A stretch of 41,592 nt of DNA, taken from Elusimicrobiota bacterium (GTDB lineage Bacteria > Elusimicrobiota > Endomicrobiia > CG1-02-37-114 > XYA2-FULL-39-19). Below, piece by piece: positions 20,310 to 26,034 of this stretch (position 1 is its first letter; each line of letters opens with the position of its first letter). The translations under genes were made by a program, and so were the position numbers. The notes under the pieces are model-generated. The model made no database searches and was not told the DNA's origin. It worked only from the letters and a program-made list of their open reading frames with translations. The stretch covers positions 1 through 41,592 of the forward strand of contig JAHIVV010000001.1 in the NCBI GenBank assembly GCA_018816525.1. Direction: 5' to 3'.

Positions 20310-22478
20310 TTACAATACTGGTTTAATATCCAATAATTGCAACTGCACATTTTCCCTGTTTTGCCAGCGGTTTATTTCCAATTGCGCCACCGCATCAATA
20401 TATTTTGAAACGCTGAATACTATCGAAGACAAATCCGCTAAATTCCATCCTATTGCATAAAGGTTGTGTCCATTTTCAGACATCTTTAATTTTAAATGGT
20501 TGTTGCCTGTGCCGACTAAAGAATGTTCGTCAACTTTTACGTTATTAATTAAAAATATCGGATACGGATTTTCTATTCCAAAAGGCTCCAGCGCGTTCAA
20601 TTCATTAACGAGTTCCATATTTACTTCCGAAAGTTTTAACTGTGAATCAATTTCCAAAATAGGTTCCAGCATCTCGCTGGTAACTTCCTGGTTAGCAATT
20701 TCAATCATCCTGTTTTTAAACTCTGCTATCTTATCCACCGCTACCGTAAACCCAACCGCCTGGGAATGCCCGCCGAATTTTACGAGTAAATCCCCGCACC
20801 TTTCCAGGGCTTTGTGAATATTAAAACCGCCGATGGACCTGCCTGTTCCCACAGCTTCCTGGCCCTCAATAATAAGCAAAAGAGTCGGCCTGTTATATTG
20901 CCTGACTATCTGGGATGCTACAATTCCCGTAACACCGTGTTCTATCCCGGTACTTGAAACAAAAAAAAGTTTGTCCTTTTCTGTGTCGCACTGTTTTTTC
21001 AGCAGTTCAATAAATTTATCGATATTTTCTGACTGAAGTTCTTTGCGTTCCTGGTTTAACTTTATAATTTCATCAAGTATTTTTTCGGCTTTTGTGACAT
21101 CTTCAGCAATAAGCAGTTCCACCGCTAACTCTGCGCGGCCCAGCCTGCCGCAGGCGTTGAGCAACGGAATTATATTGAACGATATGGACTTCGTGTTTAA
21201 ATCTTCTTTTTTTGAAAACTGCTCTATTAAAAGCTTCAATCCTATCCGGCGTGTTTTTTTAAGCGATTCGATGCCCTGTTTTACTATAATCCTGTTTTCG
21301 CCCACAAGAGGCATCATATCGCTGATAGTTGCAATACTGGCTACATCCAGGTTGTCCTGCAGGAAAAATTTCAGCCGGTTATTTCTGATTTTCTCCAATC
21401 TTTCGAAGACCTGCAGCGTCAAAATAGCATCATCAATGGCATGCCCGGAATGGATTTGTTCAATTCCCAAAGTTCCTGTAAGCGAGCCAAGCCCATAAGA
21501 TTCGAACGGGAAATATTCTCTGGAAAGAGTAAGTGTATCGATGACAGAATTATCAAACTCGCGGTTATAGAACTTTTTAGTTAACTGCCTGATGAACCCT
21601 ATATTAAATTCCGCATTGTGCGTTATTACAGTATTTTCTCCGATAAATCCAAGCAATTTTTCTGACGCGGATTCAATATCGCAGCAATCCGCGCCTGTGC
21701 CGACAAATATTTGCAATTTTTCCCGGATAACAAAATCCTTTATTTTTAAAACACCGATTTCCGAAATATTATCAAAAACCGGATGAAACCCTGTAGTTTC
21801 TATGTCCAGCACAAACATTTCCTTGTCATAATATTTGTCGTAAGACATTAACAATCCTTCGGTAAACTTTAAAGCCACAGAACAGCCTGAGAGGTCATTG
21901 AAATTATATTTACTGTCTTTTCTTTTCGGGTCTATGAGCGCTACTGCTTCCAGGGGCATATTTTTAGGGGGCTCATGATGATCGGTAACTATCACTTCTG
22001 CGCCTTTGGATTTAGCATAAGCAATTTCCTCAGAGTTTGTAATGCCGCAGTCTACCGTGATAATAAGAGTCACACCCTGTTCAATATATTTATCTATAAC
22101 GCTCTTATGCATGCCGTATCCTTCAGTAGAAGGAATGTACCACAACGGCGTTACCCCAAGAAGTTTTAAAGTGCTGTAAACCACCGTTACGGAAGAGACC
22201 CCATCCAGGTCCCTGTCGCCATAAACCAGTATTTTTTCTTTATTGTCGACCGCGCGGCGGGTTCTCTTAACCGCAGTCTCCATATCAGGAAGCAAATAAG
22301 GATTATTTAAATCGTAAAATGAAAGGTTCATGAACATATTCGCAGCTTTAATGCTCTTAACACCCCTGTTTACCAAAACTGTGGCTACGGTTCTCGAGAT
22401 GTTAAGCCCCTGAGAAATTTCATTCACCAGATTTTCATTTTTTGTTTTAACAATCCATTTTTTTGGAATAATAGCCAT
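20310..22478 (-). CDS. recJ: RecJ-type DHH exonuclease with an inserted DnaQ-like (DEDDh) domain
   Basis: A single-strand-specific 5'-3' exonuclease family protein (722 aa; RecJ is typically about 570). DHH motifs: GDRDLDG (87-93), VDCGI (142-146), TDHHEPP (165-171), LSGCSVALKF (196-205). The DHH domain is interrupted at about 218-365 by a DnaQ-like fold: MFVLDIETTG (ExoI, D225/E227), HNAEFNIGF (ExoII, 287-295) and GHAIDDA (ExoIII, 345-351). RecJ then resumes with LDVASIATISDMMPLVGENR and the DHHA1 motif GGHSQAVGF. In ExoII the usual Asp is Asn292. In ExoIII the catalytic His of HRALDDA is displaced by one residue, so the insert may be catalytically dead. It follows the DnaA-like gene by 4 bp. 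Confidence 0.92.
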   Translation of the reverse strand: MAIIPKKWIVKTKNENLVNEISQGLNISRTVATVLVNRGVKSIKAANMFMNLSFYDLNNPYLLPDMETAVKRTRRAVDNKEKILVYGDRDLDGVSSVTVVYSTLKLLGVTPLWYIPSTEGYGMHKSVIDKYIEQGVTLIITVDCGITNSEEIAYAKSKGAEVIVTDHHEPPKNMPLEAVALIDPKRKDSKYNFNDLSGCSVALKFTEGLLMSYDKYYDKEMFVLDIETTGFHPVFDNISEIGVLKIKDFVIREKLQIFVGTGADCCDIESASEKLLGFIGENTVITHNAEFNIGFIRQLTKKFYNREFDNSVIDTLTLSREYFPFESYGLGSLTGTLGIEQIHSGHAIDDAILTLQVFERLEKIRNNRLKFFLQDNLDVASIATISDMMPLVGENRIIVKQGIESLKKTRRIGLKLLIEQFSKKEDLNTKSISFNIIPLLNACGRLGRAELAVELLIAEDVTKAEKILDEIIKLNQERKELQSENIDKFIELLKKQCDTEKDKLFFVSSTGIEHGVTGIVASQIVRQYNRPTLLLIIEGQEAVGTGRSIGGFNIHKALERCGDLLVKFGGHSQAVGFTVAVDKIAEFKNRMIEIANQEVTSEMLEPILEIDSQLKLSEVNMELVNELNALEPFGIENPYPIFLINNVKVDEHSLVGTGNNHLKLKMSENGHNLYAIGWNLADLSSIVFSVSKYIDAVAQLEINRWQNRENVQLQLLDIKPVL

Positions 22479-22482
22479 ACAA

Positions 22483-24156
22483 CTATCCTGCAGTATCTTT
22501 GTGTTTTGTTAAAGTTATATCCAGGGCCAGGTTAAGATACCTGTAATCTTTATTTAATTCGTCCCAGGAAATATACTGCAAAGATATTTTTTCGCTTTCC
22601 ATAAAGCTTGAAATTGAAGTCATAAATTCATCATTTGATATACAGGAATCAGGAGGCGGCCCGACTACTATAGCTATATTAGCTTTATTTGTTTTACAGA
22701 GTTCCGTGAACATATTGTAATTTATTTTTATCTGCAGATTATACATCCTGTCAAAAATACTTTCCAGCCTGAATTTAAGGTTATGTTTTTTAATGACGTC
22801 CCGGAATTTCTCTTTTGTTTTATTAAGATCCTGTTCTTTACCTTCAGGATAAAAGAAGACTACATCTACGGGCCTGAAAGTCTTATCAATTCCCTCAACT
22901 GACTGGGAACTCACAGGCTGGCTTGGAGCCTGGACAGGTACTTCAACGTGTTGTTGCACAGGCGCCTGAACAGGATGTTGAAAAACGGGCGGAGGCACAA
23001 CAGGAATCACTGGAACTGCGGGTTCTGACGGGGCCGGGGAAGGCGGAAGATATTCATCCATATATTCTGCCGGCATCAAATCTTTCATTAACGATTTAAC
23101 CATTTCCATATCGACGTTCTGTTTGGTTATGGACGCATAAGCATTTATTCTTTTTAAAAAACCCTCAAGTTCCCTTATATCTGATTTTAATTTCGATGCC
23201 ACATATAACAACATATTATCGTCGAGCTTCACATGCTCGAACTCGCCTTTTCTTTTTAAAATAGCTACGCGAGTTTCCAGCGTGGGTGATTTAATATCCG
23301 CAATAAGGCCCCACTCAAACCTTGACCTTAAACGGTCTGCAAGTGTATTTAAAAGTTTTGGAGGGCGGTCGCTGGTAAGCACAATCTGTTTATTATGCTG
23401 GTGCAAAATATTGAACGTGTGAAAAAATTCATCCTGAGTAGATTCTGATTCTGCTAAGAATTGTACGTCATCGACAAGCAGCAAATCTACCTGCCTGTAC
23501 CTGTCCCGAAACTGCTGCAAGGTCCCGCGGCCTACAGAATCTATAACTTCGCTTACAAATTTTTCTGAAGTTACATAAAATATTCTTAAATCAGGAAACT
23601 TTTTTCCCACATAATGACCGATAGCCTGCATTAGATGCGTTTTGCCCAGTCCTACACCGCCATAAATAAACAAAGGATTATAAACTTTCCCATGATTTTC
23701 TGCCACAGCCAAAGCAGCAGCGTGGGTGAACATGTTATTTGAACCTACGACAAATTCTTCAAAAGTATACCTTGGATTTAAATAAAGTTCCCAAAATTCT
23801 TCTTTTTCTGTTTTTTCTGAGTTGGACGAAGTCCCAAATCCGCTACCATTTGGATTTGGGGCAGAGTTAGACGCCGCGGGGGCTGATGGCTCTGGTTTTG
23901 GGATAGGTGCCTGCGTTGTTTTCCCTGATTTTTTAGCGAGAATATTATTTAAGCTTTCAATTTTTGTTTCATTGAGACCATATATGTATAATCCCCAACT
24001 GTACCCGTCACTGAAGGCGGCAAAAGGGCTGTCGCTGTCAACTTTTAATTCAGTCAGCAATGCCGGCAGCTCGTGCTCTTCAATTTTAAGCTTTAATCTA
24101 TATCTATTCTGGTCCTTGTCACTGGGCGAATGCACCAGTTCCCATTTTTCAAGCAT
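22483..24156 (-). CDS. DnaA-like AAA+ ATPase lacking DNA-binding domain IV, with a novel C-terminal domain
   Basis: Residues 126-345 are a full DnaA-type AAA+ domain: [15 protein letters not shown], Walker [10 protein letters not shown] (166-174), Walker [10 protein letters not shown] (225-233), sensor 1 VLTSDRPP, the arginine-finger box LADRLRSRF and sensor 2 DIRELEG. Residues 1-75 do not resemble DnaA domain I. After the AAA+ lid comes a Pro/Val/Gln-rich linker (about 369-425), where domain IV with its helix-turn-helix and GGRDHSTV should be. The C-terminus (about 428-555) is an alpha/beta domain starting [12 protein letters not shown] that resembles the C-terminus of the preceding gene product. 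It is therefore not the replication initiator. An Hda-like regulator or an AAA+ partner of the upstream pilT are possibilities. Its place 4-27 bp from its neighbours indicates co-expression. Confidence 0.85.
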
Positions 24157-24171
24157 ACATTAAATCCTTCA

Positions 24172-24924
24172 TTATTCCTTGTGAAGTATCAATTCTATGA
24201 CTAAATCTACATAGGTTAATTTGCGGTTTATATGCACCGCAGGAATGCTGTAAAAAAATATCCCTGCGCCCAATATTTTATTTTTTATTTCTGCCGGGTC
24301 ATAGCCTTCGGGATGAACCATGAAAATAACTTTAACATCTTTTTCCCTGCACTTGCTTATTAAATCTTTCCATTCGGTAGAAAAAACATCTACGCCAAGT
24401 TCAAGCACACTTTCAGGAGTAATCGGTTTTTTACTGGTTTTTTTAAAGACATCAACTAGGTTACTAATAAACGCTTCTTTCAAATCTTCCTTACCTATCG
24501 GGTAGAAACATGCAAATTTAAGCATGCCTTCCTGTATTTTGGGAAGAGGGGTTTGTTTTGGCAACTCTACAACAACACCCTCAGCTTTAGATTTGATAAT
24601 TTGCGGAGCCTGGGCGATAGCAACATCATCAACAGACGGCGCAGGTTCCCTGAAAATCGGTTTAAAAGAACTCCCACCAGCTGTTGGGGCTGCCGGCTTT
24701 GCAGGCGTAATTCTTTGTATGGAAATTGTTTTTTGAGTTTCTTGTTTTAGTGCAGGGTCCGGGGCGGAAACAGGAACTTTTGTATTAGGGTAAAATAAAG
24801 AACCAACCTCTCCGAGTTTTTTTTCTATTTTTTCAACTACCTGTTCCTTTTCTTCCTTGGTCAGGCCGCCTAAAACTTTTTTTAGTTCAGATAAAACATT
24901 CTGCAAATTTTCTTTGTCGTCCAT
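24172..24924 (-). CDS. Unknown protein sharing its C-terminal domain with the DnaA-like neighbour
   Basis: Not a family I can name. Residues 1-40 form a charged amphipathic helix (ELKKVLGGLTKEEKEQVVEKI). Residues 45-130 are a Pro/Ala-rich low-complexity linker. Residues 134-250 are an alpha/beta domain beginning LKFACFYPIGKEDLKE and ending TYVDLVIELILHKE. The DnaA-like protein carries [17 protein letters not shown] at the matching place and ends [15 protein letters not shown]. The order of hydrophobic strands between (FMVHPEG here, IVVGPPP there) also agrees. The genes are 15 bp apart, and pilT ends 27 bp upstream. Likely cytoplasmic, with no signal peptide or membrane segment. Interaction with the DnaA-like protein through paired domains is my inference. 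Confidence 0.7.
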   Translation of the reverse strand: MDDKENLQNVLSELKKVLGGLTKEEKEQVVEKIEKKLGEVGSLFYPNTKVPVSAPDPALKQETQKTISIQRITPAKPAAPTAGGSSFKPIFREPAPSVDDVAIAQAPQIIKSKAEGVVVELPKQTPLPKIQEGMLKFACFYPIGKEDLKEAFISNLVDVFKKTSKKPITPESVLELGVDVFSTEWKDLISKCREKDVKVIFMVHPEGYDPAEIKNKILGAGIFFYSIPAVHINRKLTYVDLVIELILHKE

Positions 24925-24951: not shown

Positions 24952-26034
24952 TCACATCATTTCCTGGAACATACCTTTCAACTTCAATTGCAGGTCTTCC
25001 GGGTTTGTGGCCTTATCAAGGGCTTCTTCAAGTTTAATTTTTTTCTCTATATACAATCTGTTTAAATCCTGGTCAAAAGTGTGCATCCCATAATATTCAC
25101 CCTGTTCCATGGCTTTATAAATTTCCGGGGTTTTATTTTCCAAAATCATTTTTCTTACTAAAGATGTGCCGATAAGAATTTCAGTTGCCGGGACCCTGCC
25201 TTTGCCATCAGCTGAAACGCAAAGCCGCTGGGCGACAATACCTTTTAAGACATTTGACAATTGGATTCTGGCCTGATGCTGCTGGTGTTCCGGGTAAGTA
25301 TCTATAATACGGTCTATTGTTTGAACTGCGTCGATAGTATGGATTGTTGACAAAACCAGATGGCCGGTTTCTGCGGCAGTGATGCCTGAAGTTATTGCTT
25401 CGTATTCTCTCATTTCGCCTATGACAACAATGTCCGGATCCTGCCTCAAAACATATTTCAAGGCATTCTTGAATGATTTCGTATCTAAACCTATTTCCCT
25501 CTGCGAAAGCGAGGATTTTTTGTCTTTATGGTAAAACTCAATAGGGTCCTCGACAGTAATTATATTGTAACTGAAAGTAGCGTTGATATGATCAAGAATT
25601 GAATTCATGGTAGTGGTTTTCCCGGCGCCGGTTACTCCCGTAACAAGAATAAGGCCCCGGGACTGCGCAGCAAGTTTTTTCAAGGTTTCAGGCGGAAGAT
25701 TCAATTCTTCAAAGGTTTTTATTTTTACAGGAACCACCCTTAAAGTAAGGGCCACTGTATTTCTCTGGCGGTAAACATTCACCCTGAATCTTGAAACTCC
25801 TTCAACCGAATAGGACACATCCAGTTCGCTTTCAGTTTCAAATTTTTCTTTTTGTTCCTTATTCAACAATGAATACGCCAATTCTTCAATCTGCTTACCG
25901 GTAAAGACATCAAATTCCGAAGACATTAATTTACCGTAAATGCGGATAAGCGGCGGAGACTCTGATTTAAAATGGATATCGGAAATTCCCGCTTTTACCA
26001 TCAGCTTCAGTAGTTCATTAATATTCATTGCCAT
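24952..26034 (-). CDS. pilT: Type IV pilus retraction ATPase PilT
   Basis: A cytoplasmic hexameric motor for pilus disassembly and twitching. The 360-aa protein starts INELLKLMVKAGISDIHFKSESPP. It has Walker A GVTGAGKTT (133-141), the Asp-box region ITVEDPIEFYHKDKKSSLSQREIG, Walker B DPDIVVIGEMREYEAI and the His box GHLVLSTIHTIDAVQTIDRIID. The C-terminus GMHTFDQDLNRLY with ATNPEDLQLKLKG is of PilT/PilU type. I do not see the canonical AIRNLIRE motif clearly; MILENKTPEIYKAMEQG stands in its place, so a PilU or PilT2 paralogue is possible. A GGAGGG Shine-Dalgarno precedes ATG 26034 by 5 nt. Confidence 0.9.
   Translation of the reverse strand: MAMNINELLKLMVKAGISDIHFKSESPPLIRIYGKLMSSEFDVFTGKQIEELAYSLLNKEQKEKFETESELDVSYSVEGVSRFRVNVYRQRNTVALTLRVVPVKIKTFEELNLPPETLKKLAAQSRGLILVTGVTGAGKTTTMNSILDHINATFSYNIITVEDPIEFYHKDKKSSLSQREIGLDTKSFKNALKYVLRQDPDIVVIGEMREYEAITSGITAAETGHLVLSTIHTIDAVQTIDRIIDTYPEHQQHQARIQLSNVLKGIVAQRLCVSADGKGRVPATEILIGTSLVRKMILENKTPEIYKAMEQGEYYGMHTFDQDLNRLYIEKKIKLEEALDKATNPEDLQLKLKGMFQEMM

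Follow-up and report, generated by a model that had tools for sequence, protein, structure and literature searches.

A DnaA paralogue that lacks domain IV, encoded in a pilT-containing operon of Elusimicrobiota

The 41,592-nucleotide stretch of Elusimicrobiota DNA analysed here (the window) carries a paralogue of dnaA, termed DPAR. Judged from its sequence and gene neighbourhood, DPAR is best explained as an AAA+ protein that descends from DnaA, is specific to this phylum and serves signalling in a type IV pilus operon. The gene (22483..24156, minus strand, as are all its parts) is intact and encodes 557 residues, as indicated by its open reading frame, its Pfam and NCBIfam matches and its orthologues. 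It specifies, in order, an N-terminal domain (approximately residues 1–80; 23917..24156), a DnaA-type AAA+ domain equivalent to DnaA domain III (residues ~124–366; 23059..23787), a Pro/Gln/Val-rich linker recognized from the sequence (residues ~367–423; 22888..23058) and a C-terminal domain that resembles the MID domain of Argonautes (residues 424–557; 22486..22887). These parts are of known kinds; their combination, its conservation across the phylum and its setting are new. The first-pass annotation knew of no description of such an architecture, and we found none in the open literature that we searched.

The DnaA-type core and its distribution

DnaA is the initiator of replication, and Hda and a small number of helicase loaders reuse its core domain. 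DPAR has a DnaA-type AAA+ core but no domain IV. Bac_DnaA (Pfam) matches residues 126–286 with an E value of 2.4e-70, and the NCBIfam model for DnaA, TIGR00362, is matched with 361 bits against a cut-off of 343.9. The latter alignment covers only profile positions 87–340 of 437, which is the AAA+ part, and because it stops at position 340 domain IV must be missing. No domain IV family of Pfam or NCBIfam matched the protein, and the same absence is seen in an alignment with the DnaAs of Elusimicrobiota. Pfam gave no match to DnaA domain I, no KH-like domain I was detected, and in the PDB the closest relatives, which align just to the AAA+ region, are structures of DnaA. DPAR is not the sole DnaA-type gene of its genome: an ordinary full-length dnaA is also present (G000:C5), and the two are 47% identical in the AAA+ region. 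The DPAR core is 47–54% identical to DnaA of Elusimicrobiota. Elsewhere, a genome that has a normal dnaA and lacks DPAR (G011, of the family with working label f4; labels run from f1 to f29) encodes a second DnaA in which domain IV is apparently complete (L131, 2679–4799, minus strand).

All of the ATP-site residues are in place in DPAR: K172 in Walker A, D229 and D230 in Walker B, D263 as the sensor 1 Asp, R279 as the arginine finger and R328 as the sensor 2 Arg. These motifs are invariant in all 34 close DPARs. DPAR also shares the ISM region with DnaA domain III. The two differ in the residues for contact with DNA. K243, which is next to R245, is known as a contact for single-stranded DNA from A. 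aeolicus DnaA structures. In E. coli, domain III of DnaA contacts single-stranded DNA through residues that include V211 and R245 (PMC5835720). At the positions of K243 and R245 (E. coli numbering) DPAR has S237 and S239. Position 243 is Lys or Arg in 37 of 37 DnaAs and in none of 49 DPARs, where it is Ser, Ala, Asn or another residue, within a loop that reads ESEST in most members. With domain IV gone and the basic residue at position 243 lost, both known DNA-binding surfaces of DnaA appear to be missing from DPAR, and the chemistry of ATP and subunit contacts is kept. Divergent DPARs (families f15, f16, f25 and f26) often lack the arginine finger and the residues of sensors 1 and 2, and ATP-driven assembly may therefore not be universal in the family.

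A search of relatives recovered full-architecture orthologues in 17 genomes, including the window's own, with C-terminal domains 45–69% identical to that of the window's DPAR. Within the class, the only family without them is f4, many of whose genomes are small; one f10 genome also lacks them. The first-pass annotation had proposed profile searches for the architecture across genomes. When the C-terminal-domain profile was widened to 37 diverse members (A6) and applied at E≤0.01, it matched 242 of 341 Elusimicrobiota genomes and none of 63 from outside the phylum (14 covered by an Omnitrophota-centred search, plus 49). Seventy-six of the 99 negative Elusimicrobiota genomes belong to f4, as counted from genome handles, and outside f4 matches were found in 241 of 264. 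Among the loci examined, 49 have the domain C-terminal to a DnaA-type AAA+ domain. The phylum-wide occurrence of orthologues with all domains shows that DPAR is not an artefact of assembly or annotation. Family f4 may correspond to the gut Elusimicrobiaceae and f15 to the Endomicrobiaceae; nothing rests on these names.

In a tree of AAA+ domains, a branch with 100/100 support separates the DPARs as a whole from every DnaA, among them those of Elusimicrobiota. The two lineages thus parted long ago and, on the present data, only once, although the divergent DPARs form long branches. On these points the analysis upheld the first-pass annotation, which had described a DnaA paralogue with intact AAA+ motifs, no domain IV and a domain I unlike that of DnaA, and had raised the question of a normal dnaA elsewhere in the genome. 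Divergent DPARs in L178, L179, L183, L184, L188, L189 and further f15 genomes are 860–1190 residues long and have long N-terminal extensions. They show degenerate AAA+ residues and no adjacent pilT, and are encoded next to tpiA and deoC; in several cases a comM-like member of the Mg-chelatase family, dprA and a topA-like gene lie downstream.

The terminal domains and the helper proteins

Single-sequence searches of Pfam, the PDB and PHROGs with the C-terminal domain returned nothing convincing. Structure predictions used the window and L032 sequences only, so their alignments are shallow; the AlphaFold2 model of this domain, built from just 4 sequences, has a pLDDT of 74 and a pTM of 0.68 and consists of four alternating strands and helices. 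Foldseek against the PDB gave 16 matches with E≤0.001. Argonaute/PIWI MID domains rank at the top and make up most of these, with TM scores of 0.53–0.66, and the rest are lumazine synthase, the other top match. Profile comparison was negative for lumazine synthase and also for a response-regulator receiver.

Independently of the fold search, we compared profiles with hhalign, using as MID reference nine prokaryotic Argonautes (TtAgo and relatives, and haloarchaeal and Hydrogenophilus Piwi proteins) that were drawn from Thermus and other plasmids and Thermaceae genomes. All C-terminal domains together matched MID with a probability of 92.9, an E value of 3.7e-7 and a score of 44.3 over 112 colinear columns. 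Scores did not exceed 16.7 with 200 column-shuffled MID profiles, or 15.8 with seven other gene families, lumazine synthase and the receiver family. Subsets agreed, although the match was weaker with DPAR rows only (probability 55–61, E ~1e-4) than with rows from the helper proteins described below (92.0, E 6.5e-7); with the haloarchaeal and Hydrogenophilus Argonautes as the only reference, the E value was 7.7e-8. From the fold search and the profile comparisons we consider it likely that the domain is MID-like, probably through remote homology. The first-pass annotation had called it a new domain that could not be assigned. Its novelty is borne out, yet an assignment is possible, as a likely relative of the Argonaute MID domain, and genes nearby encode it as well.

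The DPAR C-terminal domain and the MID domain of Argonautes have in common the order of beta and alpha elements, a PP after strand 3, a Gln in strand 4 and a final helix that contains Asn. They differ in that DPAR lacks the PIWI, PAZ and N domains; Pfam found no PIWI domain after the MID-like domain, and the protein ends just past the last MID helix. In further contrast to Argonaute, the MID-like domain is either fused to AAA+ or occurs by itself next to a Pro-rich linker. No Argonaute turned up when the 50 genomes from which the DPAR loci come were searched for Piwi. MID domains bind 5′ phosphates through the motif (Y/H/R)KQK (PMC9360449, PMC4390867), which is not kept here: in the alignment, TtAgo R418 is replaced by a hydrophobic residue, K422 by Ile or Leu and K457 by Thr, Leu or Ser, and the sole partly conserved position is that of Q433, which is Gln or Glu. 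PliAgo binds a 5′ phosphate without the motif (PMC9360449), so the C-terminal domain may bind a ligand despite this loss.

A helper gene of 250 codons lies between pilT and DPAR in the window (24172..24924, minus strand) and has equivalents in most pilT-DPAR operons. Its product has a helical N-terminus, a Pro-rich linker and a MID-like C-terminal domain (24175–24549), and this C-terminal half corresponds to the DPAR C-terminal domain (hhalign, A1 versus A2: probability 97.4, E 1.5e-11). Other classes have one or two helper genes at this place, and these also encode the DPAR N-terminal domain, without AAA+. A free-standing protein of 253 residues with a DPAR-type C-terminal domain (E 7e-27) is encoded away from the DPAR operon in G220 (L170, 7137–7898, minus strand).

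The DPAR N-terminal domain is predicted to be a small ferredoxin-like alpha/beta fold of the order beta-beta-alpha-beta-alpha (AlphaFold2 pLDDT 84), and its model gave no match in the PDB with E<1e-3. HMM searches also detected it in products of adjacent genes that have no AAA+ domain, and in a single GGDEF protein; in some lineages it is a separate gene, and in L115 it is doubled. The GGDEF protein, a diguanylate cyclase whose N-terminal part is this domain, is encoded directly upstream of pilT (L117, 4551–5984, plus strand). This fusion is a direct hint of c-di-GMP input.

Gene neighbourhood and the PilT-X ATPase

DPAR belongs to a conserved operon that consists of pilT, one or two helper genes, DPAR and a multi-GAF histidine kinase gene. 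In the window, the pilT-type ATPase gene (24952..26034, minus strand; TIGR01420, E 2e-137), whose product we call PilT-X, is upstream. Among 37 strong loci, pilT lies upstream of DPAR, directly or via helper genes, in 27, and the kinase gene is directly downstream in at least 22. The kinase is present in 29 of 49 loci overall, often with a start/stop overlap of 1–4 bases. The first-pass annotation had tied DPAR to pilT; the linkage holds, with the correction that in the window the two genes are not directly adjacent, the helper gene standing between them. No kinase gene adjoins DPAR in the window's lineage (f1–f3) or in f5. In the window, its usual place is taken by recJ (20310..22478, minus strand), and because recJ replaces the kinase in this lineage the kinase was invisible to the first reading.

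Some PilT-family ATPase is encoded in 315 of 341 Elusimicrobiota genomes, so the general presence of pilT is useless as a test of co-occurrence, and we scored it at the level of orthologues. PilT-X orthologues, defined by at least 55% identity to the window's pilT product, were found in 15 of 60 relatives. Fourteen of these 15 have DPAR, and in the fifteenth the contig ends inside the helper gene. Three of the same 60 relatives have DPAR without PilT-X and 42 have neither (Fisher P 5e-11, shared ancestry ignored). Thus, at this level, the co-occurrence with pilT that the first reading had proposed to score is found, and on its distribution PilT-X is dedicated to the DPAR operon: apart from the case at a contig end it was never seen without DPAR, whereas DPAR does occur without PilT-X. 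G021, G034 and G038 keep DPAR and the kinase in the absence of PilT-X, so the role of DPAR cannot be confined to PilT-X. The window's genome (G000, 1.6 Mb) has at least 5 PilT/GspE-type ATPase genes that match TIGR01420, of which four show a strong relationship to the pilT in the window, and these paralogues probably have different jobs.

Genes for tpiA, rpiB, deoC and nucleoside phosphorylases are found near DPAR, joined in some families by comM-like genes and dprA, and part of the neighbourhood may therefore be inherited gene order. In L115, L116, L119, L120 and L172, deoC, a phosphopentomutase-like gene and genes for purine and pyrimidine nucleoside phosphorylases adjoin the pilT-DPAR-kinase operon on the same strand. 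The window's RecJ carries, at residues ~222–370, an inserted DEDDh (PolC/DnaQ-type) 3′–5′ exonuclease domain whose motifs DIETTG, HNAEF and HAIDD look intact by eye; it may hold both 5′–3′ and 3′–5′ nuclease sites, and the RecJ proteins of L112 and L118 are about as long. A defence system was considered and rejected, PADLOC giving only a weak AAA+ match to mad8.

Proposed role and alternatives

We regard the chances as evenly balanced that DPAR is an ATP-dependent oligomeric signalling switch or scaffold that acts on the dedicated PilT and is not a replication protein. ATP-bound DPAR would assemble into an oligomer like that of DnaA, but without DNA binding, and its N-terminal domain would dock it onto partners. 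The MID-like domains of DPAR and the helpers would sense a phosphate-containing ligand, for example a nucleotide, or bind each other. Assembly driven by ATP or ligand would switch or position the dedicated PilT retraction motor, with input signals received through the histidine kinase or c-di-GMP enzymes. Regulators associated with PilT and PilU include PilZ, PilG/PilH, MglA-type and c-di-GMP systems. With these DPAR shares the association with a retraction ATPase and a sensor kinase, and in one lineage with a GGDEF protein; it differs in that no Pfam or NCBIfam model of those families matches it. More tentatively, we envisage a DnaA-derived polymer, restricted to Elusimicrobiota, that controls type IV pilus retraction through MID-like sensing of nucleotides or nucleic-acid 5′ ends. 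This would be a signalling or DNA-uptake system in which MID domains operate outside Argonautes, in at least two proteins per operon.

The main rival to the switch or scaffold reading, which we think rather unlikely, is that DPAR acts on DNA imported by the pilus, for natural transformation or as food, with an AAA+ filament coating the strands and the MID-like domain holding their 5′ ends. Binding of nucleic-acid 5′ ends is what MID domains do (PMC9360449, PMC4390867), recJ adjoins DPAR in the window's lineage, a ComM-like Mg-chelatase-family gene and dprA are close downstream in several divergent families, and DPAR often has genes for deoC, phosphopentomutase and nucleoside phosphorylases nearby. 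Yet the basic residue that contacts single-stranded DNA is lost in all 49 DPARs, the 5′-phosphate motif retains just one of its four residues, in part, and recJ, comM and dprA appear only in some families, whereas the histidine kinase and PilT are recurrent. That the polymers are purely structural, a polar scaffold or spatial organizer of pili or other machinery without control by ligand, seems to us improbable. DnaA-type AAA+ cores do form ATP-dependent helical assemblies (PMC5835720), such a filament could be capped or decorated by the helpers, which share its end domains but have no AAA+, and DPAR persists without PilT-X in three lineages; the frequent linkage to a kinase nevertheless suggests signalling, and the assembly residues are lost in divergent members.

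A part in replication, one of the roles suggested by the first-pass annotation, fares worst. DPAR might be an Hda-like regulator of DnaA or of replication initiation that forms mixed oligomers with the real DnaA, as its closeness to the phylum's DnaA in the core and its intact arginine finger and sensors would allow. Hda, too, has a DnaA-type AAA+ domain and lacks domain IV, and its model TIGR03420 matches DPAR with an E value of 1.8e-30. The score of 106 bits is far under that model's cut-off of 194.8, whereas the DnaA model is passed, and Hda, which acts together with the beta-clamp, is short and has a single domain, whereas DPAR has two extra domains. Nothing in the genomes ties DPAR to dnaA, dnaN or an origin, its Lys/Arg contact for single-stranded DNA is gone, its operon partners are pilus and signalling genes, and its phyletic tie is to PilT-X. 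We therefore hold an Hda-like role to be very unlikely.

In DPAR, the AAA+ core of DnaA has stayed strongly conserved across much of a phylum although both of its known DNA contacts appear to be gone; it is combined with a domain familiar from Argonautes and linked to a pilus motor and a sensor kinase. Since DPAR passes the NCBIfam cut-off for DnaA, automatic annotation will call these genes dnaA. If the switch or scaffold reading is true, DPAR would represent a new use for the DnaA fold and for a MID fold without PIWI, and a candidate system for pilus control in a little-studied phylum.
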